Shown piece by piece: positions 53,121-64,000 of a DNA stretch of 64,000 nucleotides. Position numbers and translations under genes: made by a program. Position 1 is the stretch's first letter, and each line of letters opens with the position of its first letter. This DNA comes from Hyphomicrobium denitrificans ATCC 51888 (GTDB lineage Bacteria; Pseudomonadota; Alphaproteobacteria; Rhizobiales; Hyphomicrobiaceae): contig NC_014313.1 of the NCBI RefSeq assembly GCF_000143145.1, forward strand, positions 2,976,001 to 3,040,000, read 5' to 3'. A model generated the notes under the pieces. The model was not told the DNA's origin. It worked only from the letters and a program-made list of their open reading frames with translations, and made no database searches.

Positions 53121-55841
53121 ATGGCCAACACGTTGCGGCCGGAAGATGCGCGCCGCCCCTCAGCCAAGGCTTTTCTGGAGCTTGCCACCAACGAACGGCG
53201 CGGCAAGCTTAAGGTGTTTCTCGGCATGGCGCCGGGCGTCGGCAAGACCTACGCCATGCTGTCGGCGGCACGCGCCCTGAAGCGCGAGGGACTCGACGTC
53301 GTCGTCGGCGTTGTCGAGACGCACGGACGCTCCGAGACTGCGGCATTGCTCGATGGACTGGACGTGCTACCGCGCCGGACCGTCTCCTATCGCAATCGCA
53401 CACTCATGGAGTTCGATATCGACGCCGCGATCGCGCGTCGCCCGGCGCTGCTCCTCGTCGACGAATTCGCGCACACCAACGCGCCGGGATTGGTGCATCC
53501 CAAGCGCTATCAGGACGTCGAAGGCGTTCTGCAAGCGGGTATCGACGTCTGGACGACGCTCAACATTCAGCATCTCGAAAGCCTGACCGACGTCGTCGAG
53601 CGCATCGCCGGAATTACGGTTCGCGAGACGGTCCCCGACAAGGTTCTCGAGCGCGCCGACGAGATCGTCGTCGTCGACCTGCCGCCGGAAGACCTGATCC
53701 AGCGTCTCAAGGAAGGCAAAGTCTACCTGCCGGACAATGCGCGCCGGGCGATGGATCAGTTCTTCCAGATGGGCAATCTCACGGCGTTGCGCGAACTGGC
53801 GTTGCGCCGGACGGCCGATCGCGTCGACGAACAAATGCTGTCGCAGCTTCGCAGGCAAGGGATCGAAGGGCCGTGGCCGACGGCGGAACGGCTAATGGTT
53901 TGCGTCGGCGACGACGAGCTGGCCGAGCCCGTCGTACGCGCCGCGGCGCGCATGGCGACAGCGCTCAAGTCTGACTGGATTGCAGTTCATGTCGTGCAAA
54001 GCGAACGCGAACAGACGGATCGCGGCTCCGTACGACGCATGGAAAAAGCGATGCGTCTCGCGGACCGCCTGGGCGCAACGACCGTACGTCTACGCGCCAA
54101 GGACCTGACCGCGGAAGTCCTGGCCTATGCCAAGCGCAACAACATTACTCAGATCATCGTCGGCCGCTCGCGCCCACAATTGCTCGATCGCTGGCGCGGA
54201 AAATCGTTTTCGACCGAGCTGGTAGCCGAAGCGGCGGGGCCGTCCGTCACCGTCGTCGCGCCGGATGCGCCGTTGGCACCGCTTTCCTCGCCGTGGCATC
54301 TTCCCGATATCAGCGAGTTCTGGTCCGGCGGGATCGCGGCTGTCGTCGCCGTTGCGGGCGGCGTCATCGCGGGCCGGATGCTGGAGAAGATCACGCAGCT
54401 TCCCAACCTGTCGATGATTTTCCTGTTCGCGGTTCTCGTCTGCGCGCTCCGCTTCGGAACGTACTCTGCCGTGGCCGCGGCCGTGCTGTCCTTTCTTGCA
54501 TTCAACTTCTTCTTTATCGATCCGCGCTACACACTGACGATTGCATCGCCGTACGAACTTTTTGGCTTGCTGATTTTCCTCGTCGTCGCTGCCGCGACCG
54601 GCGGCCTGGCCGGACGCCTTCGCGAGCAGGCCAACGCCACACGCGAACGGGCGGAAGCGACGCAAGCGCTGTACGAATTTTCGGGAAAACTTTCGGCGAC
54701 GACGGAGATCGATGACGTGCTGTGGCTGCTCGCCGCGCAGTCGGCGGCGCTTGTCAAAGGCAAGTCGATCATCCTTCTGGAACACGCGAACGAGCTTTCC
54801 ATCGCAGGCGGCTGGCCGCCGGACGACACGCTCGGAACTGCCGACTGGGCGGCGGCCCGGTGGGCGCATCGCAATGGCGAGCCCGCCGGCTACCTGACGG
54901 AGACGATGCCTTCGGCGGCGTTTCAATTCCGCCCGTTGATCGCATCGGCAGGACCGGTGGGTGTGCTCGGGGTCGTGCCGGGAGACGCCGACGAGGCGCT
55001 GCCCTCGGCGACCGGGAGCGCGCTTCAGTCGTTCGCCGATCAGGCCGCGGTCGCCATCGAGCGCACGCGACTGTTCGAGCAGGCTGCCAAGGCTGCGACC
55101 GCTGCCGAAAGCGAGCGGCTGCGCGGCGTGCTCTTATCTTCGATCTCGCACGATCTGCGGACGCCGCTCGCATCCATTCTGGGCTCGGCGACCAGCCTCC
55201 GACAGCTCGGCGACCGCATGCGCAAGCAAGACCGCGCCGATCTTCTGGCAACCATCGAAGAGGAAGCGACCCGGCTGTCCTCCTTCGTATCCAACCTGCT
55301 CGACATGACGAAAGTCGAAACCGGCCTTCTCGACATCCGGCGCGACTGGGTGGACGTGGCCGACGCCGTTCGCGGCGCCGCCGCGCGAGCCAGAAAGATC
55401 TTTCCGGCACGACATATCGAGACTGTCATCGCCGCCAACCTGCCGCTCATTCGCGGCGATGCGGCGATGCTCGAGCAGGTCATGTTCAATCTGATCGACA
55501 ACGCACACAAATACAGTCCACCGGAGTCGGTGACCCGCGTCAGCATCACGCCAGCCACCGGAGGCGGATTGCACATCCGCGTGACCGACGACGGCATCGG
55601 CATTCCACCCGAGGCATTGAACAAGGTCTTCGACAAGTTCTATCGTGCACATGTCGGCGACGGCCGTGCGCCCGGCACCGGCTTAGGATTGTCGATCTGC
55701 GCTGGAATCGTGTCTGCGATGGGCGGAACGATATCGGCACAGAGTCCTATCGCCGACGGAAAGGGCACCGAGATTTCGATCCTGCTTCCTGCCGGCGAAG
55801 AGAGCGTATCTACTGAAACGTCTCCCAAGGATACCGCATGA
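53121..55841 (+). CDS. kdpD: Sensor histidine kinase KdpD
   Basis: A 906-residue, normal-length KdpD. It has the N-terminal KdpD domain with Walker-type GMAPGVGKTYAMLS (about residues 35-48), a USP-like domain (about 255-380), four membrane helices (about 395-500), a GAF-like region, and the kinase core with His 677 in SSISHDLRTPLASILG and the N and G boxes (NLIDNAHKYSP, VTDDGIGIPPEALNKVFDKFYR). It senses K+ limitation and drives KdpE. It follows kdpC by 3 bases and overlaps kdpE by ATGA. Confidence 0.97.
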   Translation: MANTLRPEDARRPSAKAFLELATNERRGKLKVFLGMAPGVGKTYAMLSAARALKREGLDVVVGVVETHGRSETAALLDGLDVLPRRTVSYRNRTLMEFDIDAAIARRPALLLVDEFAHTNAPGLVHPKRYQDVEGVLQAGIDVWTTLNIQHLESLTDVVERIAGITVRETVPDKVLERADEIVVVDLPPEDLIQRLKEGKVYLPDNARRAMDQFFQMGNLTALRELALRRTADRVDEQMLSQLRRQGIEGPWPTAERLMVCVGDDELAEPVVRAAARMATALKSDWIAVHVVQSEREQTDRGSVRRMEKAMRLADRLGATTVRLRAKDLTAEVLAYAKRNNITQIIVGRSRPQLLDRWRGKSFSTELVAEAAGPSVTVVAPDAPLAPLSSPWHLPDISEFWSGGIAAVVAVAGGVIAGRMLEKITQLPNLSMIFLFAVLVCALRFGTYSAVAAAVLSFLAFNFFFIDPRYTLTIASPYELFGLLIFLVVAAATGGLAGRLREQANATRERAEATQALYEFSGKLSATTEIDDVLWLLAAQSAALVKGKSIILLEHANELSIAGGWPPDDTLGTADWAAARWAHRNGEPAGYLTETMPSAAFQFRPLIASAGPVGVLGVVPGDADEALPSATGSALQSFADQAAVAIERTRLFEQAAKAATAAESERLRGVLLSSISHDLRTPLASILGSATSLRQLGDRMRKQDRADLLATIEEEATRLSSFVSNLLDMTKVETGLLDIRRDWVDVADAVRGAAARARKIFPARHIETVIAANLPLIRGDAAMLEQVMFNLIDNAHKYSPPESVTRVSITPATGGGLHIRVTDDGIGIPPEALNKVFDKFYRAHVGDGRAPGTGLGLSICAGIVSAMGGTISAQSPIADGKGTEISILLPAGEESVSTETSPKDTA

Positions 55842-56530
55842 CCGGCTCGCGCATTCTCGTCGTTGACGACGAACCGCAAATCCTGCGCTTCCTGAAGCCG
55901 AGCCTGACAGCTGCGGGTTACGAGGTCGTCGTGGCGACGACCGGCAAGGAGGCATTGAAGGCTGCCGCCACGCAATCGCCAGACATCATTCTGCTCGATC
56001 TCGGTCTCCCCGACATGGACGGCAAGGACGTGATCCGCGAACTCCGAGGATGGTCGAAGACGCCGATTCTGGTGCTTTCGGCGCGCGACCGGGAGAGCGA
56101 AAAGATCGCCGCATTTGATCTCGGCGCCGACGATTACGTCAACAAGCCGTTCGGCATCGGCGAACTCACGGCGCGCTTGCGGACGGCGCTCCGCCACGCC
56201 GCACAACAAGCTTCCGAACAAACCCATCTGAAATCGGGAGCCCTCGAGGTCGATGTTCTGGCGCATACGGTGACGCTCAACGGCGCGGCGGTAAAGCTGA
56301 CGCCGAAGGAGTTCGATCTGCTCGCGATCCTGGTTCGCAACGCCGGACGCCTTCTGACGCACCGCCAGCTTCTCGCGGCCGTCTGGGGCGCCGCACACAC
56401 CGAGGACCTGCAATATCTGCGCGTTTTCGTCGGTCAGCTACGGCAAAAGCTCAAAGCATCGCCCGATGCACCAGAATTCATCGTGACCGAACCAGGGATC
56501 GGCTACCGCCTGCAAATCGACGTAAGTTGA
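55838..56530 (+). CDS. kdpE: Response regulator KdpE (OmpR family)
   Basis: A 230-residue two-domain regulator. The receiver has the acidic pair VVDDEPQ, the phosphorylated Asp 54 (ILLDLGLPDMDG), a conserved Ser/Lys pair (LSARD, NKPFG), and the winged-helix output domain with LTPKEFDLLAILVRNAGR and LRVFVGQLRQKL. Its start overlaps the kdpD stop. It activates kdpFABC at low K+. Confidence 0.97.
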   Translation: MTGSRILVVDDEPQILRFLKPSLTAAGYEVVVATTGKEALKAAATQSPDIILLDLGLPDMDGKDVIRELRGWSKTPILVLSARDRESEKIAAFDLGADDYVNKPFGIGELTARLRTALRHAAQQASEQTHLKSGALEVDVLAHTVTLNGAAVKLTPKEFDLLAILVRNAGRLLTHRQLLAAVWGAAHTEDLQYLRVFVGQLRQKLKASPDAPEFIVTEPGIGYRLQIDVS

Positions 56531-56565: not shown

Positions 56566-58041
56566 ATGCAAAGTCAATTTACCGGAACGCTCTTAGCGTT
56601 GCTTGAGGAGCAGGCGAGTTACGATTTGCCGATTGGCGTCCGTATTCAAAATGCCATTCGCCGACAGCTGAGAAATGGGAGCCTCAAGGCTTTCGAGCGC
56701 TTGCCATCGACACGTCTCTTGGCGAGCGAATTGAGCGTCGCACGCGAGACTGTGGAGCTTGCCTATCAACATCTGGAAGCCGAGGGGTATCTGATCCGTC
56801 GACACGGAAGCGGGACGTTTGTCTCAGAGACGGGCGCACAGCTGGCGACATTTCAGACCAATCCTGGCAGAAAAACAGGTGGCCTAAACCTCTCCGAGAG
56901 GGGCAGAAAAATTCAGCGCTCTGGAAAAGTGCAAGATCCGGTGCAGCTGCCTTTCGCTGCGGCCTTTCCGGATGTGAGGTCGTTTCCAATCGATCTTTGG
57001 AAACAGACTCTCTCCCGCGTCTCGAGACGATTGGGAACGAATGCTCTCGGCTATTGCGATTCGCAGGGCCTTGAACAACTTCGCGAGGAGATTGCCCGCT
57101 ACCTGGGCGCCTATCGTGGTGTCAAGTGTGGCGCGGAGAATGTCATCGTACTCACGAGTTCTCAGGAAGCTCTACTGCTTATCACGACGATGATGCTTGA
57201 CCCCGGAGATACGGTTGCTGTCGAAGATCCGTGCTATCTGGGTATACGTTCTGCCGTCACCGTTTCGGGCGCGGTTCCACTGCCCATTGACGTCGACGAC
57301 AATGGGATGGTGGTCGAAAATCTCATCCGACGAAAGCCTGTTCCGCGCGGCGTCTACGTAACGCCTTCACATCAGTATCCTACGACAGCAACCCTCAATC
57401 TCGAGCGCCGCATGGCTCTGGTCGATTGGGCGAAGGCGAACAGCAGATTCATTATCGAAGACGATTACGACAGCGAATACCGTTACGACGGTGCGCCGAT
57501 ATCCTGCATTCAAGGATTAGACACATCCGGCAACGTTCTCTACGTCGGCACCTTTACCAAGACCCTTTTCCCTGGAGTTCGCCTCGCCTATCTAGTTGCG
57601 CCGACGCATCTCGTGCCTGCGTTGGTTGGAATGCGGACACTTGTCGACGGACATTCAGCCATTTTGAATCAGGCGACTTTGGCCGAGTTCATGGCAACAG
57701 GCGAATTTACTGCACACATACGGCGCATGCGCCAGCTCTTCAAAGCGAGGCGCGATTCCTTTGTCGAAGCCGCCGAACGCTATCTTGCGCCGTATGGAAA
57801 GCTCCGAATTCCCGCCGGCGGATTTCAGGCGACTTGGTATCTTCATGACGGCCGCGCCGAGGACGAAGTCATGAGAAAGGCGGAGCAGAGTGGTATTGTT
57901 CTCTTATCCCTCTCGAGTCTTTTTATAAGGAAGCGCAGGACCCCAGGGTTCGTTCTCGGCTTTGCTGGTCTAACGTCGGAGGAGTGTGAGATTGCCGTTA
58001 AGCGATTCGCTCGCGTCTTGAAGGGGATTGCGGCCCACTGA
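56566..58041 (+). CDS. MocR/PdxR-type transcriptional regulator (GntR HTH fused to aminotransferase)
   Basis: A 491-residue regulator: a GntR winged HTH at residues about 20-85 (PSTRLLASELSVARETVELAYQ, HLEAEGYLIRRHGSGTFV) fused to a fold-type I aminotransferase domain (about 120-490). The PLP lysine is in VGTFTKTLFPGVRLAY, the phosphate-binding and Asp residues in IIEDDYDSEYRYDG. Some members (PdxR) bind PLP and control its synthesis. The adjoining gene encodes a PNPOx-like flavoprotein on the same strand, so local control is likely. Confidence 0.9.
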   Translation: MQSQFTGTLLALLEEQASYDLPIGVRIQNAIRRQLRNGSLKAFERLPSTRLLASELSVARETVELAYQHLEAEGYLIRRHGSGTFVSETGAQLATFQTNPGRKTGGLNLSERGRKIQRSGKVQDPVQLPFAAAFPDVRSFPIDLWKQTLSRVSRRLGTNALGYCDSQGLEQLREEIARYLGAYRGVKCGAENVIVLTSSQEALLLITTMMLDPGDTVAVEDPCYLGIRSAVTVSGAVPLPIDVDDNGMVVENLIRRKPVPRGVYVTPSHQYPTTATLNLERRMALVDWAKANSRFIIEDDYDSEYRYDGAPISCIQGLDTSGNVLYVGTFTKTLFPGVRLAYLVAPTHLVPALVGMRTLVDGHSAILNQATLAEFMATGEFTAHIRRMRQLFKARRDSFVEAAERYLAPYGKLRIPAGGFQATWYLHDGRAEDEVMRKAEQSGIVLLSLSSLFIRKRRTPGFVLGFAGLTSEECEIAVKRFARVLKGIAAH

Positions 58042-58089
58042 TCGTCAGACGCCTCACCTCATGTTGCGCCGGATCAGTGGCGATTTTTC

Positions 58090-58142
58090 CCATGTGGTCT
58101 GCCGCATGTATCCAAAGTGGATGAATACAGCATTCCACATGG
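58090..58142. promoter_or_regulatory. 8-bp inverted repeat between the mocR-type gene and the PNPOx-like gene
   Basis: CCATGTGG (58090-58097) and CCACATGG (58135-58142) are exact inverted repeats with a 37-base spacer. They lie in the 147-base space before the flavoprotein gene and could be operator half-sites for the MocR regulator; this is inference. Confidence 0.4.
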
Positions 58143-58149
58143 AGGATAA

Positions 58150-58185
58150 GAATTCCCGCGTTAAGTGCGAATATCATGGGAATTC
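58150..58185 (+). promoter_or_regulatory. 8-bp inverted repeat just upstream of the PNPOx-like start
   Basis: GAATTCCC (58150-58157) and GGGAATTC (58178-58185) form an exact inverted repeat with a 20-base loop that ends 3 bases before ATG 58189. In RNA the 3' arm would cover the GGGAA that best fits the ribosome site, so translation could be masked; as DNA it could be a regulator site. Confidence 0.45.
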
Positions 58186-58188
58186 AGA

Positions 58189-58902
58189 ATGGACACCCCG
58201 AGCGACATGCCTTTATCGGACCGCACGAGAATGCGGCGCTACCATTGGCTCGCCAAATACGATCGCGAAAGCGTCAATAGTATCATCGATGCCGGGATCA
58301 TTTGCCAGGTTGGGTATGTGTTCGACGGAGTACCATACGTTACGCCAACGAGCCATTGGCGCATCGATGACCATGTCTATTGGCACGGCTCGTCAGCAAG
58401 TCGGATGCTCAAAGCGCAGGAAAAGAACATTCCAGTTTGTTTCAGCGTCACCCACATCGACGGCATCGTCTTCGCGCGCGCCGCGATGAACCACAATATT
58501 CTTTATCGCTCCGTCATGGCTTTCGGCAACGCATCGGTCACGAGCGAAGAGGAGAAAAGGCACGTCCTCTCTGTTTTTTGCGACCGGTTGGCTCCAGGTC
58601 TTTGGGACTACGCTCGAAGACCGAACGAGCAGGAGTGGAAAGCGACCAAGGTCATCAAACTCAAGTTGGACGAAGTGGCTGCCAAGGTGAATGATGCGCT
58701 GCCCGGTGACGAAGAGCCTGATCTTGCAACAGACCGTTGGGCCGGCATGGTTGCGCTTGAACTCATGCAAAAAGCGCCAGTTCCCGACCCAAGATTGGCT
58801 CCGGGGCTCAAGATGCCGGATTTCGTGAAGGCCTTCAGCTATTCTGCACGTGCAGGTGACAGATCGGCATGGACTCCCGAGAAAGTTGGTGACGACAGCT
58901 GA
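58189..58902 (+). CDS. PNPOx-like FMN-binding protein (pyridoxamine 5'-phosphate oxidase family)
   Basis: A 237-residue flavoprotein of the split-barrel fold. Seen: RYHWLAKYDRESVNSIIDAGIICQVGYVFDGVPYVTP, HWRIDDHVYWHGSSASRML (FMN contact region), CFSVTHIDGIVFARAA, and NHNILYRSVMAFGNASV, a pattern of NimA-like/PNPOx-related proteins. It is probably not PdxH itself, which has other motifs. It is 147 bases after the MocR regulator, on the same strand, and is a plausible target of it. I start at ATG 58189; the frame is open to 58165. Confidence 0.82.
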   Translation: MDTPSDMPLSDRTRMRRYHWLAKYDRESVNSIIDAGIICQVGYVFDGVPYVTPTSHWRIDDHVYWHGSSASRMLKAQEKNIPVCFSVTHIDGIVFARAAMNHNILYRSVMAFGNASVTSEEEKRHVLSVFCDRLAPGLWDYARRPNEQEWKATKVIKLKLDEVAAKVNDALPGDEEPDLATDRWAGMVALELMQKAPVPDPRLAPGLKMPDFVKAFSYSARAGDRSAWTPEKVGDDS

Positions 58903-59621
58903 CCTCTACGTCACTGGGGACCGCAACGTGCTGAGAAAAGCGGCAACGCTCATCCATTGAAAAGTTGTTCAGACGTTGGCGTTCCAGCCCATACATAGAT
59001 ATTGCGGTAATACGGGCGATATCGAAGCTTTTCGTTTCGACGGCCCACCAGTGCGAATTGAGTAAATTTGTTTGCAGTCACGCCAAGCTATTCGGCACCG
59101 GACCATTCAAAGTGGATGGTGACGGGTATTCATTTCTTCGTAATTTTATTGTTGCGGATAACTTTATCGATCGAGATTTGTTCTTTCGGGCGAGACAACA
59201 GCGCAACCTCAACAATGCACGGTGACCCCTAGTGTATTTCGTAGAGTAGAGATGGATTCGCGAATGCTTCGGCAACGCTTGGCGCGCGACAACCTGGACC
59301 TCGCTGCGGACGGGTAGCTTTTCCTGTTTTTGAACATTCGTTTTTATTTACTAGACGCTCATGAGTTTCGCGATGCAACGACGAATTCAATTGACTTAAA
59401 ACATCCGCAAGCGCCCTTTCGCCCGCGGACGGGTGGGTTGCTACGCATGCGAGCGCGAGTTCGGCAATGCTATTGCGCGTCAAAAGCAGACCAGTAGCGA
59501 GCTGCTGCCAGCGTGCCGCTCCGTTTGATTTCTCGCCTTCATCGCAATTGATGTTTTTCGCGTTGTTCTTCAACTCCGCCGGGTCGCGATGCGCATCGCA
59601 TCTTCGGGGGAGCGCAAAGCG
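58903..59621. other. AT-richer, gene-poor region before the sulfatase cluster
   Basis: About 700 bases that are visibly more AT-rich (58950-59250) than the rest of the window. It contains no gene I can support strongly; one weak minus-strand reading frame is listed separately. Its composition differs from both flanks, consistent with the edge of an acquired segment, but no repeat or integrase is visible. Confidence 0.5.
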
Positions 59622-59645
59622 ATGAGTCGAAGCCTTCCATCGCAC
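59229..59645 (-). CDS. Possible 138-aa hypothetical protein (weak)
   Basis: An open frame on the minus strand from ATG 59645, overlapping the FGE start region, or from a later non-ATG start. The middle part (ARWQQLATGLLLTRN, then IAELALACVATHPSAGERAL) looks helical and coding, while the N-terminal 30 residues and the C-terminal third do not. There is no clear ribosome site. It could be a decayed gene. I list it because nothing else explains the stretch. Confidence 0.25.
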   Translation of the reverse strand: MRWKASTHRFALPRRCDAHRDPAELKNNAKNINCDEGEKSNGAARWQQLATGLLLTRNSIAELALACVATHPSAGERALADVLSQLNSSLHRETHERLVNKNECSKTGKATRPQRGPGCRAPSVAEAFANPSLLYEIH

Positions 59646-60623
59646 GATCTCGGAATTTCACAACGTCACGATGGCAGCGCTGACCGATTACATAGCGGCA
59701 TGGTCTTCGTTCCTGGCGGGACGTTCCGCATGGGATCCGATCATCACTATCCCGAGGAAGCGCCCGCGCATCGTGTCAGCGTCGATTCATTCTGGATTGA
59801 TGAGGCGCCGATTACGAACGCCGAGTTTCGGCGCTTCGTGGACGCAACAAACTACGTAACTTTTGCCGAGTTGACGCCGAACGCGAGCGATTATCCAGGC
59901 GCGTTGCCGCACATGTTGCGGGCAGGCTCACTCGTCTTCAAGCCGCCGGCGGGAGAAATCGATCTCAGGAATTGGGGGCAGTGGTGGGAATTTCGCTTCG
60001 GCGCGAATTGGCGCCTTCCCTACGGCCCTGGAAGTTCAATCAAGGGTCTTGACGAACACCCTGTCGTGCACGTCGCCTATTGCGATGCGGAGGCCTATGC
60101 GCATTGGGCAGGAAAGGAATTGCCAACCGAGGCGGAATGGGAGTTCGCCGCGCGTGGCGGCATCGAAGGGGCCGAATTCGCCTGGGGGGATGAGTTGACG
60201 CCAGGCGGCAAGTACATGGCCAACACCTGGCAAGGCATTTTCCCGCGCGAGAACCTGAAGCTCGATGGCTATGAGCGCACTTCTCCGATCAAGGCCTTTC
60301 CACCCAACGGCTACGGAATCCACGATATGATCGGCAACGTCTGGGAATGGACGAGCGATTGGTATGCGCCGAAGCATCCTGCGGATGCTCAGAAGGCGTG
60401 TTGCATTCCGAAGAATCCTCGCGGCCCCGGGCAGGATCAAAGCCTGGATCCTTATCAGCCTCAGATCCGCATACCCCGCAAGGTTCTCAAAGGCGGGTCT
60501 CATCTCTGTGCGCCAAACTATTGCCGCCGCTACAGGCCAGCGGCACGCCACGCCGAGCCTATCGATACGTCGACAAGCCATGTGGGATTTCGCTGCATCG
60601 TCCGAACACGTGCTGAAAACTGA
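59622..60623 (+). CDS. Formylglycine-generating enzyme (sulfatase-modifying factor)
   Basis: A 333-residue FGE-sulfatase domain protein, which oxidises the sulfatase active-site Cys to formylglycine. The catalytic Cys pair is in GGSHLCAPNYCRRYRPAAR, the substrate-binding and Ca-loop motifs are seen in VFVPGGTFRMGSD, LPTEAEWEFAARGG, NVWEWTSDW and TSHVGFRCI. There is no signal peptide, so it acts in the cytoplasm, where the nascent sulfatase is. I start at ATG 59622, about 8 bases after GGGGGAG. The next gene starts 18 bases on; the matching sulfatase is the second gene downstream. Confidence 0.93.
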   Translation: MSRSLPSHDLGISQRHDGSADRLHSGMVFVPGGTFRMGSDHHYPEEAPAHRVSVDSFWIDEAPITNAEFRRFVDATNYVTFAELTPNASDYPGALPHMLRAGSLVFKPPAGEIDLRNWGQWWEFRFGANWRLPYGPGSSIKGLDEHPVVHVAYCDAEAYAHWAGKELPTEAEWEFAARGGIEGAEFAWGDELTPGGKYMANTWQGIFPRENLKLDGYERTSPIKAFPPNGYGIHDMIGNVWEWTSDWYAPKHPADAQKACCIPKNPRGPGQDQSLDPYQPQIRIPRKVLKGGSHLCAPNYCRRYRPAARHAEPIDTSTSHVGFRCIVRTRAEN

Positions 60624-60641
60624 GATTCTAATGAGGGATTC

Positions 60642-61721
60642 ATGAAAACATTTTTTGGGTTCTCATTGGTGTTGCTCGTTTTCGTCATGATTGGCGCTGC
60701 GCCGGTACGAGCGGACGACGAGAAGTTTTCCAAGCAGCAGCTCGACCAGATGCTGGCGCCGATCGCGCTCTATCCTGATGATCTTCTGTCGAATGTCCTT
60801 ATGGCATCGACATATCCACTCGATGTCGTCGAGGCGCAGCGGTGGCGAAGCGTGCCTGGAAACGCCAGCCTGCAGGGGGATGCACTTGTCGATGCGCTCA
60901 AGTCAAAAGACTGGGACCCGAGCATCAAAGCCCTCGTGCAATTTCCTGACGTTCTAAAGATGATGAGCGATCAGCTCGATTGGACGCAAAATCTCGGGAA
61001 TGCCTTTCTTGCTCAGCAAGATCAGGTGATGGATCAGGTCCAGTTTCTGCGATCGAAGGCTGATTCAAGCGGTCATCTGAAAAGCAACTCACAACAGACA
61101 GTGAAACAACAGGATGGCGCGTATGTCATCCGGTCCGCCAATCCCGATACCGTCTATGTGCCGGTATATGAGCCGTCGGTCGTCTACGGGACATGGTGGT
61201 ATCCCGATTATCCTCCGTATTACTGGGGCTATCCTGGCGCCGTGTTCACGGACGGGTTTTTCTGGGGCGCCACTGGCATCGCGATCGCTGGCGGTATCTG
61301 GGGGTGGAACCATTGGGATTGGCATAATCGCCGTATCGACATTGATGCCAACCGTTGGAACCGGATCGACGTCAACCGCCGCAACATCAGCAACAACGTC
61401 TGGAAACACGATCCGAAACATCGCGGAGATCTCCGGCGCGGTGACAAGAATTTCAACCGCGCAGACATCGAACGTCGGCTGCACGACGGCAACCGTCCGG
61501 ATGCCAAGAAGAAATTCGAGCACAGCGCTCAGCTGCCGAATAGCGCGAGAAACATATCGAAAGCTAAGACAGGCGCCGCTCGATCCGCGCACGCACGCGG
61601 TGGTAGCGCGGCCAAGAAATTTGAAAAGAGAGGGGGCGGTCGGGCGACGCGGCCAGCGACTCATTTCAAAAAGCCCGCCGTTCAGCATCGCGGCGCGGGC
61701 CGTCGCGGTAGACGAAGGTGA
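60642..61721 (+). CDS. DUF3300 family secreted protein
   Basis: A 359-residue protein with a Sec signal peptide (residues 1-24, ending GAAPVRADD). The N-terminal domain carries the DUF3300 motifs LDQMLAPIALYPDDLLSN, VEAQRW and LKMMSDQLDWTQNLGNAF; the middle has VYVPVYEPSVVYGTWWYPDYPPYYW, and the rest is a Trp/Asn/Arg-rich, then Lys/Arg-rich tail with no predicted fold. Between FGE and sulfatase genes it may be a periplasmic helper, but the family has no proven function. A TonB box or catalytic motif is not seen. Confidence 0.9.
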   Translation: MKTFFGFSLVLLVFVMIGAAPVRADDEKFSKQQLDQMLAPIALYPDDLLSNVLMASTYPLDVVEAQRWRSVPGNASLQGDALVDALKSKDWDPSIKALVQFPDVLKMMSDQLDWTQNLGNAFLAQQDQVMDQVQFLRSKADSSGHLKSNSQQTVKQQDGAYVIRSANPDTVYVPVYEPSVVYGTWWYPDYPPYYWGYPGAVFTDGFFWGATGIAIAGGIWGWNHWDWHNRRIDIDANRWNRIDVNRRNISNNVWKHDPKHRGDLRRGDKNFNRADIERRLHDGNRPDAKKKFEHSAQLPNSARNISKAKTGAARSAHARGGSAAKKFEKRGGGRATRPATHFKKPAVQHRGAGRRGRRR

Positions 61722-61813
61722 TTGAAGCAGGAAACGCTTTTTAAAGCGTCATTATACGGAGATTTACGCCGGGGAAACGCCGAGGGCAGTAGCTAATAGA
61801 ATGAGGTAGCGAA

Positions 61814-63616
61814 ATGACTGCCAATATTCCATCGGATAGGAAGGATACGGCGACCGCTCTCAATCGTCGAAGCATCCTTCTAAGCGGAGCTTCGCTGGTT
61901 ACTCTTGCAGCAGCTGCTGCCGGATCTGCGAGCGCCCAAGACGCGAAACCATCCGACGCGCCGGCCGCATCTCCCGCGTCTGACAATAGTAAGCCGAACA
62001 TCCTTGTCCTTTGGGGTGACGACATAGGTGTTGCAAATGTCAGCGCGTATTCGAACGGATTGATGGGGTATGAGACCCCGAATATTGATCGCATCGCGAA
62101 AGAGGGGCTCAAGCTCCAGCACTATTACGGCGAACAGTCGTGCACTGCGGGTCGCTCGGCGTTCCTGACCGGCCAGCACATCATGCGCAGCGGCCTGAGC
62201 AAAGTTGGCTTCCCCGGCGCTCCGATGGGAATGAGCCAACTGGACCCCTCCATCGGCGGACTCCTCAAGAATCTCGGCTACACGACGGGCCAGTTTGGCA
62301 AGAACCATGTTGGCGACCGCAATGAATCTCTTCCCACCGTCAATGGTTTCGACGAATTCTTCGGCAACCTCTATCATCTTAACGCCGAAGAAGAGCCGGA
62401 GCTCCCGGATTACCCGAAAGACCCGGCTTATCGAGCCAAATTTGGCCCCCGAGGCGTTTTGAAATGCAAAGCAACGGATACTGACGATCCGACCGTCGAT
62501 CCTCGCTTCGGCAAAATCGGCAAACAGATTATCGAGGATACCGGCCCTCTGACGAAGAAGCGAATGGAGACGGTCGACGACGAGACATCGAGTGCCGCCA
62601 TCGACTTCATCAAGCGGCAGAACGCGGCCGGAAAGCCGTTCTTCTGCTGGTTCAATTCGACACGTATGCACTTGCGAACACATGTCCGGGCTGGCCATCG
62701 GGGCCGCTATACGCACGGAGACAGCGAGTACATCGATGGAATGATCGAGCATGACGACACGATTGGCTCATTGCTCAAAGTGCTGGATGACCTGGGCATC
62801 GCCGACAACACCATCGTCGTCTATTCGACCGACAACGGTCCACACATGAACACATGGCCTGACGGTGCCATGACGTGGTTCCGCTCCGAGAAGAATACGA
62901 ACTGGGACGGCGCATTTCGTGTCCCGTGTCTTGTCCGCTGGCCTGGCCACATCAAGCCCGGAACAATCAGCAACGAGCTTATGAGTCACAACGATTGGCT
63001 TCCGACGCTTTGTTCAATCGCGGGCGAGCCTGACATCGTCAACAAGCTCAAAGCCGGCTATACCGCCAATGGCATCGCCTACAAAGTACATCTCGACGGC
63101 TACGACCAGTCGGCGTTTTTACAAACCGTCAGTGGCAGTGCTGCCAACAACAACGGCATCAAGAGCGCGCGCAACAGTTTCTTCTATTCGAACGATGATG
63201 GACTGCTCGTGGCTTTCCGGCAGGGAGACTACAAGTACGTTTTTTCCGAGCAACGATCGCCTGGCACGATGGAAGTATGGGCGGAGCCATTCACGACACT
63301 CCGTTTGCAGAAGATCTTCAACATCTTCCAGGACCCATTCGAGCGCGCCGATATCACATCCAATACCTTCTGGGATTGGCAGCTCGACCACGTCGGATCC
63401 ATGTATGGCGTGATGGACGATGTCTTCCAATTTGCGTCGACATTCAAGGATTTCCCGCCCCGCTCGTTCCCGCCTAGCTTCAATCCGGCAAACATCATGG
63501 AGGATGAGATGGATGGCATAAAGCGGAGGGAAGCCTTCAAGAAAAACTTAGACCTCGATCGCATACGCGGCGGCTTAAACAAGATGATCGACGAGCGTTT
63601 GCAAGGCGTGCAGTAG
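61814..63616 (+). CDS. Arylsulfatase, Tat-exported, formylglycine type
   Basis: A 600-residue type I sulfatase. A twin-arginine signal (NRRSILLSGAS, residues 17-27) is followed by a hydrophobic run and a cut near ASAQD. The maturation motif C-x-A-x-R is CTAGR with Cys 110, the residue FGE oxidises. Metal ligands are Asp 69 and Asp 70 (LWGDDIG) and the later Asp/Asn in STDNGPHMN; the Lys in FRSEKNTNWDG and His in KNHVGD fit the family. Tat export implies it folds and is modified in the cytoplasm first. Substrate class is unknown. Confidence 0.95.
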   Translation: MTANIPSDRKDTATALNRRSILLSGASLVTLAAAAAGSASAQDAKPSDAPAASPASDNSKPNILVLWGDDIGVANVSAYSNGLMGYETPNIDRIAKEGLKLQHYYGEQSCTAGRSAFLTGQHIMRSGLSKVGFPGAPMGMSQLDPSIGGLLKNLGYTTGQFGKNHVGDRNESLPTVNGFDEFFGNLYHLNAEEEPELPDYPKDPAYRAKFGPRGVLKCKATDTDDPTVDPRFGKIGKQIIEDTGPLTKKRMETVDDETSSAAIDFIKRQNAAGKPFFCWFNSTRMHLRTHVRAGHRGRYTHGDSEYIDGMIEHDDTIGSLLKVLDDLGIADNTIVVYSTDNGPHMNTWPDGAMTWFRSEKNTNWDGAFRVPCLVRWPGHIKPGTISNELMSHNDWLPTLCSIAGEPDIVNKLKAGYTANGIAYKVHLDGYDQSAFLQTVSGSAANNNGIKSARNSFFYSNDDGLLVAFRQGDYKYVFSEQRSPGTMEVWAEPFTTLRLQKIFNIFQDPFERADITSNTFWDWQLDHVGSMYGVMDDVFQFASTFKDFPPRSFPPSFNPANIMEDEMDGIKRREAFKKNLDLDRIRGGLNKMIDERLQGVQ

Positions 63617-63637
63617 GCGGCAAGCGGAGAACGGCCA

Positions 63638-64000
63638 ATGGCCGTGATCGCCTTACGAAAATACGGGACATGGATGCTGGGCATTCTGGCATCCTTATTC
63701 ATGTGCATGGCGGTTGCGGCCGCTTCGGAGCCGCTTCCGTCGTGGAACGACGGTGCAACCAAACAGGCCATCATCGACTTCGTCGTCAGGGTGACGAAGG
63801 ACGGCAGCGCGGATTTCGTGCCCGAGGCACAACGCGTTGCCGCTTTCGACAACGACGGGACGCTGTGGGCCGAGCAACCGATGTACGTTCAGGCGCTGTT
63901 CGTCGCTGACCGCGTGAAAACGCTCGCTTCACAACATCCCGAATGGACGAGCAAAGAGCCTTTCGCATCGCTGCTCAAGGGTGACGCAACGGGAGTTGCG
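63638..64000 (+). CDS. HAD-superfamily phosphatase, N-terminal part (3' end outside window)
   Basis: Open from ATG 63638 to the window edge, 121 codons without a stop. A signal-peptide-like N-terminus (hydrophobic residues 12-29, ending AVAAAS) is followed by the HAD motif I AFDNDGTLW (Asp 71 and Asp 73). So a secreted or membrane-tethered HAD phosphatase is likely. It lies 21 bases after the sulfatase gene in the same direction and probably belongs to its operon. A role in releasing phosphate or dealing with sulfatase products is only guessable. Confidence 0.85.
   Translation, partial: MAVIALRKYGTWMLGILASLFMCMAVAAASEPLPSWNDGATKQAIIDFVVRVTKDGSADFVPEAQRVAAFDNDGTLWAEQPMYVQALFVADRVKTLASQHPEWTSKEPFASLLKGDATGVA

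Follow-up and report, generated by a model that had tools for sequence, protein, structure and literature searches.

A probable sulfate-ester hydrolysis operon in Hyphomicrobium denitrificans and the recurrent linkage of its sulfatase and HAD hydrolase genes

The window analysed here is a stretch of 64,000 nucleotides from Hyphomicrobium denitrificans ATCC 51888 (bases 2976001-3040000 of one 3638969-base contig), and at its end lie four genes, all in one direction, that encode a formylglycine-generating enzyme (FGE), a DUF3300 protein, a type I sulfatase and a HAD hydrolase. Taken as a whole, these genes are probably the left half of an operon for the hydrolysis of sulfate esters. The conserved unit is the sulfatase together with the HAD hydrolase, not the sulfatase together with DUF3300, and the genome has one full FGE and one CXAXR-type sulfatase, which stand together. 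The substrates of many bacterial sulfatases are, to our knowledge, not known; with a partner enzyme that recurs and a genome that has a single FGE and a single client, the question of the substrate can be tested directly.

The FGE and its client sulfatase

The initial annotation had described a compact island of an FGE, a DUF3300 protein, a sulfatase exported by twin-arginine translocation (Tat) and a HAD phosphatase. All four genes were confirmed in their places by Pfam matches and motifs, and they adjoin with gaps of 18 bp (FGE/DUF3300), 92 bp (DUF3300/sulfatase) and 21 bp (sulfatase/HAD). On the other hand, the window boundary cuts both the HAD gene and the run, so that what had been taken for an island of four genes is the left half of a run of eight to nine.

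The FGE gene (59622..60623, plus strand, 333 aa; the start at 59622 is a chosen one, since the same open frame also has an ATG at 59589) matches PF03781 with 268 bits over positions 4-254 of 255. Its motif CAPNYC aligns with CHRSYC of a solved FGE, and we take the two cysteines to be the catalytic pair of the enzyme. No signal peptide was seen when the N-terminus was judged by eye, and both catalytic cysteines and the missing signal are thus as first annotated.

In the whole genome PF03781 was found in two proteins, the FGE of the window and EgtB (592 bits, cut-off 360), the latter adjoining a gene that by eye looks like EgtD. PF00884 was found in three: the CTAGR sulfatase of the window, a phosphoethanolamine transferase (NF028537, 591 bits, cut-off 500), and a protein that by eye is LtaS-like with no visible C-X-P/A-X-R. 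The radical maturase model TIGR03942 had no match in this genome, while the same model matched 12 of 14 control genomes, two of them over its cut-off. With one FGE, one formylglycine-type sulfatase and no match to a radical maturase, the proposal that the FGE activates the neighbouring sulfatase is well founded. Bacterial FGE-sulfatase gene pairs, as we know them as a kind, likewise place a cytoplasmic FGE beside its client; the present run differs from them in adding HAD, DUF1254/1214, DUF3302, HlyD and DUF3300 genes.

The sulfatase gene (61814..63616, plus strand, 600 aa) matches PF00884 with 152 bits against a curated cut-off of 25. The formylglycine motif is C/S-X-P/A-X-R, with Ala accepted at the third place; CTAGR is found at residues 110-114, and in a scan of named genomes, in which the best 80 of at least 565 sulfatase relatives were taken as loci (numbered with an L below), the CTAGR pattern was present in 78 of the 80. 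By family and motif the protein is a type I (S1, formylglycine) sulfatase. Its N-terminus, ...NRRSILLSGASLVTLAAAAAGSASA, has the twin arginine, hydrophobic region and AxA end of a Tat substrate, as annotated, and export is predicted. The twin-arginine signal is also present in the sulfatases of L047, L049, L073-L077, L079 and L094, and was not seen in that of L078 or in those of several more distant alphaproteobacterial relatives.

The best solved relative of the sulfatase is PsFucS1 (PDB 7AJ0; SulfAtlas S1_13), found with 170 bits by single sequence and 210 bits by profile. Residues D69, D70, K163, H165, D340, N341 and K360, invariant in five sequences including that of the window, align with 7AJ0, and the aligned residues beyond those named for that structure presumably have metal or catalytic roles. 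Named in the source are Asp69, Asp70, Cys111 and Asp334 of 7AJ0 (PMC8484680); the metal and nucleophile positions align, with CTSSR in PsFucS1 where the present sulfatase has CTAGR. PsFucS1 is reported to be a type I sulfatase active on fucoidan oligosaccharides (PMC8484680). Its context is that of marine polysaccharides, whereas for the sulfatase of the window nothing points to fucoidan.

Linkage of the sulfatase and HAD genes

The HAD gene (63638..64000 in the window, full gene to 64651, plus strand, 337 aa) begins with a signal peptide and carries DNDGT at residues 71-75. No Pfam match was obtained with the piece inside the window, while the full gene matches PF12710 with 54 bits. DNDGT and the last GD of GNSDGD (acidic motif IV) are invariant in eight HAD sequences, the one studied here included, and motif and domain together identify the product as a HAD hydrolase. 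Its sole solved relative found by sequence is PDB 4OVY (424 bits over residues 31-333).

The 80 sulfatase loci span Alpha-, Beta- and Gammaproteobacteria, Flavobacterium, Planctomycetes, Acidobacteria, Actinobacteria, Chloroflexi and Cyanobacteria. Among these best 80 relatives a HAD gene lies within 5 kb of the sulfatase in 49, adjacent and on the same strand in 42; for FGE the count within 5 kb is 32, for both genes together 23 and for either of them 58. With the count restricted to the 57 loci flanked by 5 kb on either side, HAD was found in 38 and HAD or FGE in 42. A survey of 398 genomes of the phylum, with at most three sulfatase and five HAD candidates scored per genome and counts that are for this reason lower bounds, gave HAD in 35 genomes, the sulfatase in 49 and both in 34, i.e. 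in 34 of 35 HAD genomes against 49 of 398 overall (Fisher test, P about 3e-36, genomes treated as independent though related). Within these genomes, 22 of the 39 HAD places are within 5 kb of a scored sulfatase and 28 within 10 kb.

The two families do not share one history. On the sulfatase tree the gene of the window groups with Nitrobacter (support 95/96), in a clade that also holds Bradyrhizobium (L077), Ochrobactrum, Variovorax and Flavobacterium. The HAD gene groups with Mesorhizobium escarrei and an Acidobacteriaceae (quick tree, Shimodaira-Hasegawa-like approximate likelihood ratio test (SH-aLRT) 96), and the Flavobacterium HADs fall in a different clade. Identities to the window are 76% (sulfatase) and 41% (HAD) in Flavobacterium L081, and 57% and 59% in Acidobacteriaceae L097. 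Sulfatase and HAD distances correlate with r 0.53 over 50 pairs (top of 500 shuffles 0.11), in part through shared ancestry. As the trees disagree, descent of a single old block does not account for all of the linkage; the two genes seem to have come together on more than one occasion, and genes that stay neighbours while their trees part would be a good sign of a functional link. The single module proposed in the initial annotation is supported for sulfatase, HAD and FGE, which recur together across phyla, whereas DUF3300 is an occasional member, and the emphasis should be on HAD instead of DUF3300.

Searches of open-licence literature found no report of DUF3300 with a sulfatase or of DUF1254 with a sulfatase, which is weak as evidence of absence, and the linkage of sulfatase and HAD may therefore be undescribed within that literature. 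One paper from the DUF1254/DUF1214 search (PMC6710368) does not contain the word sulfatase, and nothing was found in open-licence literature on Hyphomicrobium with methyl sulfate.

Export states of the two proteins were compared at 87 loci, using a hydrophobicity rule of our own with a hard threshold rather than a trained predictor. Fifty pairs were scored, two of which (L039, L041) hold a distant CTPGR sulfatase and not the CTAGR type; of the other 37 loci, 32 had no same-strand HAD scored within 5 kb and five further ones had a protein that could not be scored. The export state is the same in 45 of the 50 pairs, both proteins having a signal in 30 and neither in 15. The sulfatase of Variovorax L080 lies in the exported sulfatase clade and yet has no signal, and its HAD falls in a clade (support 99) with those of L038, L106 and L125, which have no signal as well.

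Two further sets of loci were observed. In mycobacteria and Nocardia (L112, L118, L121, L129, L139, L142) sulfatase, HAD and FGE stand in a row, and no signal was seen on the six sulfatases or on the four HADs that could be scored. At several Hyphomicrobium and Bradyrhizobium loci (L040, L043, L047, L051, L074, L075) only short pieces of HAD are left, next to the sulfatase or DUF3300.

The longer run and its proposed function

Beyond the window the run continues with two DUF1254/DUF1214 genes (64588-66090 and 66115-67224), a DUF3302 gene (67254-67490) and a gene for an HlyD/RND-type adaptor (67487-68428) that overlaps DUF3302 by four bases. An alternative, later ATG of the first DUF1254/DUF1214 gene at 64648 would give a four-base overlap with the HAD stop, and from HAD to HlyD all neighbours are joined by small gaps or short overlaps. 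A beta-barrel gene follows 190 bp after the HlyD gene and ends near 69551; its family was assigned through its relative in L047 as Phenol_MetA_deg (PF13557).

In the function that we propose for this probable operon, the cytoplasmic FGE would oxidise Cys110 of the CTAGR sulfatase to formylglycine prior to export. The sulfatase would then cross the inner membrane, probably via Tat, and cleave sulfate off a small organic sulfate ester in the periplasm, where the exported HAD hydrolase, probably a phosphatase, may act on this compound or a linked one. The DUF1254/1214, DUF3302, HlyD-type and beta-barrel products may serve binding or transport in the envelope. DUF3300 could be an exported envelope accessory that was recruited to the cluster from its usual pairing with DUF2950. 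A wider version of this proposal, which we consider doubtful, is that the CTAGR sulfatase and the HAD family form a cross-phylum, repeatedly re-formed two-enzyme pathway that removes both sulfate and phosphate, in this order or the opposite one, from a single class of metabolites, with DUF3300 and DUF2950 as envelope components joining in alphaproteobacteria.

Several observations weigh against the proposed function. Of the 80 relatives, 22 have neither HAD nor FGE within 5 kb; the same holds for 15 of the 57 loci with full flanks, and the distance to a scored sulfatase exceeds 5 kb at 17 of the 39 HAD places. HAD is absent or in pieces beside the sulfatase in L047, L049, L074 and L075 (Hyphomicrobium and Bradyrhizobium) and is therefore not indispensable. 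In five of the 50 scored pairs the HAD has a signal and the sulfatase has none. The export state changes twice on the sulfatase tree and seven times for HAD, leaving few independent cases, and a test on independent pairs yielded two pairs, with HAD changing in the same direction in an average of 1.8 of the 2, and could not become significant; since the state of the sulfatase changes only twice, the coupling of export is suggestive only. A scan for promoters and terminators gave no signal above chance level. Finally, in G052 a DUF3300 piece with an internal stop (G052:C13:193907-194053) sits 28 bp ahead of a sulfatase of the CTAGR family, and loss of DUF3300 is therefore possible; the gene order of the window was probably once present there, DUF3300 having decayed while the sulfatase stayed.

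It is also possible, if short of probable, that the run is a general island for sulfur and phosphorus scavenging, the two enzymes acting on different esters and having only their regulation in common. Sulfatase and HAD families are broad ester hydrolases, the other genes of the clusters vary, and the remote HAD places just mentioned fit such an island as well. Against it, the HAD family was found in 34 of the 49 sampled genomes that have the sulfatase and in one of the 349 that lack it, a closer association than common starvation control would require.

DUF3300 and the flanking genes

DUF3300 is a family with almost no open-licence literature, for which we now have a commonest neighbour (DUF2950), a confident model of the core and a clade without DUF2950. 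The gene of the window (60642..61721, plus strand, 359 aa) matches PF11737 with 299 bits over all 227 positions (residues 30-256). Its product has a Sec-type signal peptide, a helical core with a small beta part (residues 26-256) and a basic, low-confidence tail (residues 257-359; 31 K/R against 9 D/E). The model of the core (predicted local distance difference test 84, predicted template modelling score 0.85) has nine N-terminal helices followed by the beta part; it had no significant PDB or viral structural match, and a sequence search against solved structures gave nothing useful (best E 0.03).

Neighbours were counted at 101 DUF3300 loci, 41 from the family of the window and 60 from a sample of the phylum, leaving out the broken piece in G052, three fragments or weak matches in G448 and G400, and one place in G409 (later L220). 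Within 5 kb, DUF2950 was the commonest neighbour (51 loci; Pfam-confirmed on two members), followed by HlyD-type adaptors (20, some weak), DUF3302 (9), HAD (8), sulfatase (7) and FGE (5), with any of the last three in 11. DUF3300 and DUF2950 are reported to be universally co-localised in root nodule bacteria (PMC4653623); the DUF3300 of the window is of the same family and also has a signal peptide, but its genome is without a DUF2950 match and has sulfatase neighbours instead. DUF2950 was found neither in the run nor by a whole-genome search here, a search in which 14 control genomes were silent too and which gave matches in G069 and G053 and none in G043, G044 and G047; the window accordingly holds no DUF3300-DUF2950 pair. 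Elsewhere DUF3300-DUF2950 lies near HlyD-type adaptors with no sulfatase found (L186, L191-L193, L195, L199, L214, L216), L214 and L216 additionally carrying DUF3302. The vicinity of an HlyD-type adaptor may be the more general setting of DUF3300.

On a quick tree with SH-aLRT support only, the gene falls in a clade (98) of 13 Hyphomicrobium genes. None of the 13 has DUF2950 within 5 kb, while the nearest genes outside (L033, L038, L042, L061) do have it; a sulfatase, FGE or HAD gene is near seven of the 13, and five of these seven have a complete sulfatase. Two of the outside loci, L038 and L061, look intermediate: their DUF3300-DUF2950 pair closes, on the HlyD side, a run that contains HAD and DUF1254, and in L061 a CTAGR-family sulfatase lies further up the contig.

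The 11 loci near sulfatase, FGE or HAD comprise nine in the family of the window and two outside it (L198, L211); the sulfatases of L039 and L041 are of the distant CTPGR type, in L061 the match reaches a weak 79 bits, and the HADs of L043 and L051 are in pieces. The link of DUF3300 with the cluster recurs outside the genus, and the co-occurrence beyond this lineage for which the initial annotation asked was thus found. In Azospirillum L219 DUF3300, DUF2950, FGE and sulfatase stand on one strand with HAD divergent. HAD also neighbours DUF3300 in two genomes from other families: at L220 HAD, DUF3300 and DUF2950 follow in this order on the same strand and a sulfatase is found about 8 kb away, and at L221 HAD and DUF3300 are divergent.

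That DUF3300 is a passenger, an envelope gene that often occupies the same variable island but is functionally independent of the sulfatase, is a possibility we take seriously without thinking it the likelier case. Its position is mixed (between FGE and sulfatase, after HAD, or after HlyD), in L103, L198 and L211 it is on the opposite strand, the module label takes eight changes on the DUF3300 tree, and the remnant in G052 is broken. A mere passenger, on the other hand, would not be expected to lie within 10 kb of a sulfatase or HAD gene in five of 64 places against 0.35 expected (uniform placement, kinship ignored; P about 5e-4 without the place of the window itself), and the seven of 13 Hyphomicrobium genes near the cluster argue in the same direction.

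A dedicated sulfatase partner (chaperone, tether or substrate binder) is improbable: DUF3300 does stand directly between FGE and sulfatase in the window and in G043 (L049), a broken piece just precedes the sulfatase in G052, 11 of the 101 loci and Azospirillum L219 show the association, and the sulfatase is present in 27 of 58 DUF3300 genomes against 22 of 340 others (kinship and genome size uncorrected), but DUF3300 was not seen nearby at 79 of the 80 named sulfatase loci, among them the nearest one, Nitrobacter L073 (the 80th, L103, has it on the opposite strand with DUF2950), sulfatase, FGE and HAD are all absent within 5 kb at 90 of the 101 DUF3300 loci, and no sulfatase role is named for the E. 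coli DUF3300 protein YacH in the available part of its source (PMC9600279). By the same counts, and with DUF2950 as the commonest neighbour, the role of a chaperone or partner of sulfatases in general, suggested earlier, is not supported, and a universal sulfatase accessory was rejected.

YacH and the DUF3300 of the window belong to one family; copies in E. coli records of a plasmid collection show 47-51% identity to the latter, only over about residues 17-154. YacH is reported to be CpxR-regulated and linked to protamine tolerance (PMC9600279), with a conflicting sign, as yacH is said to contribute to resistance and the deletion mutant is also said to survive better.

Searches of this DNA with Rfam and for tRNA genes led nowhere. 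Before the run the window holds genes for a KdpD-like sensor kinase and a KdpE-like regulator (53121-56530; 745 and 250 bits, under the equivalog cut-offs), and at 56566-58902 a PdxR-like MocR regulator (406 bits, cut-off 320) followed by a pyridoxamine 5'-phosphate oxidase-like protein.

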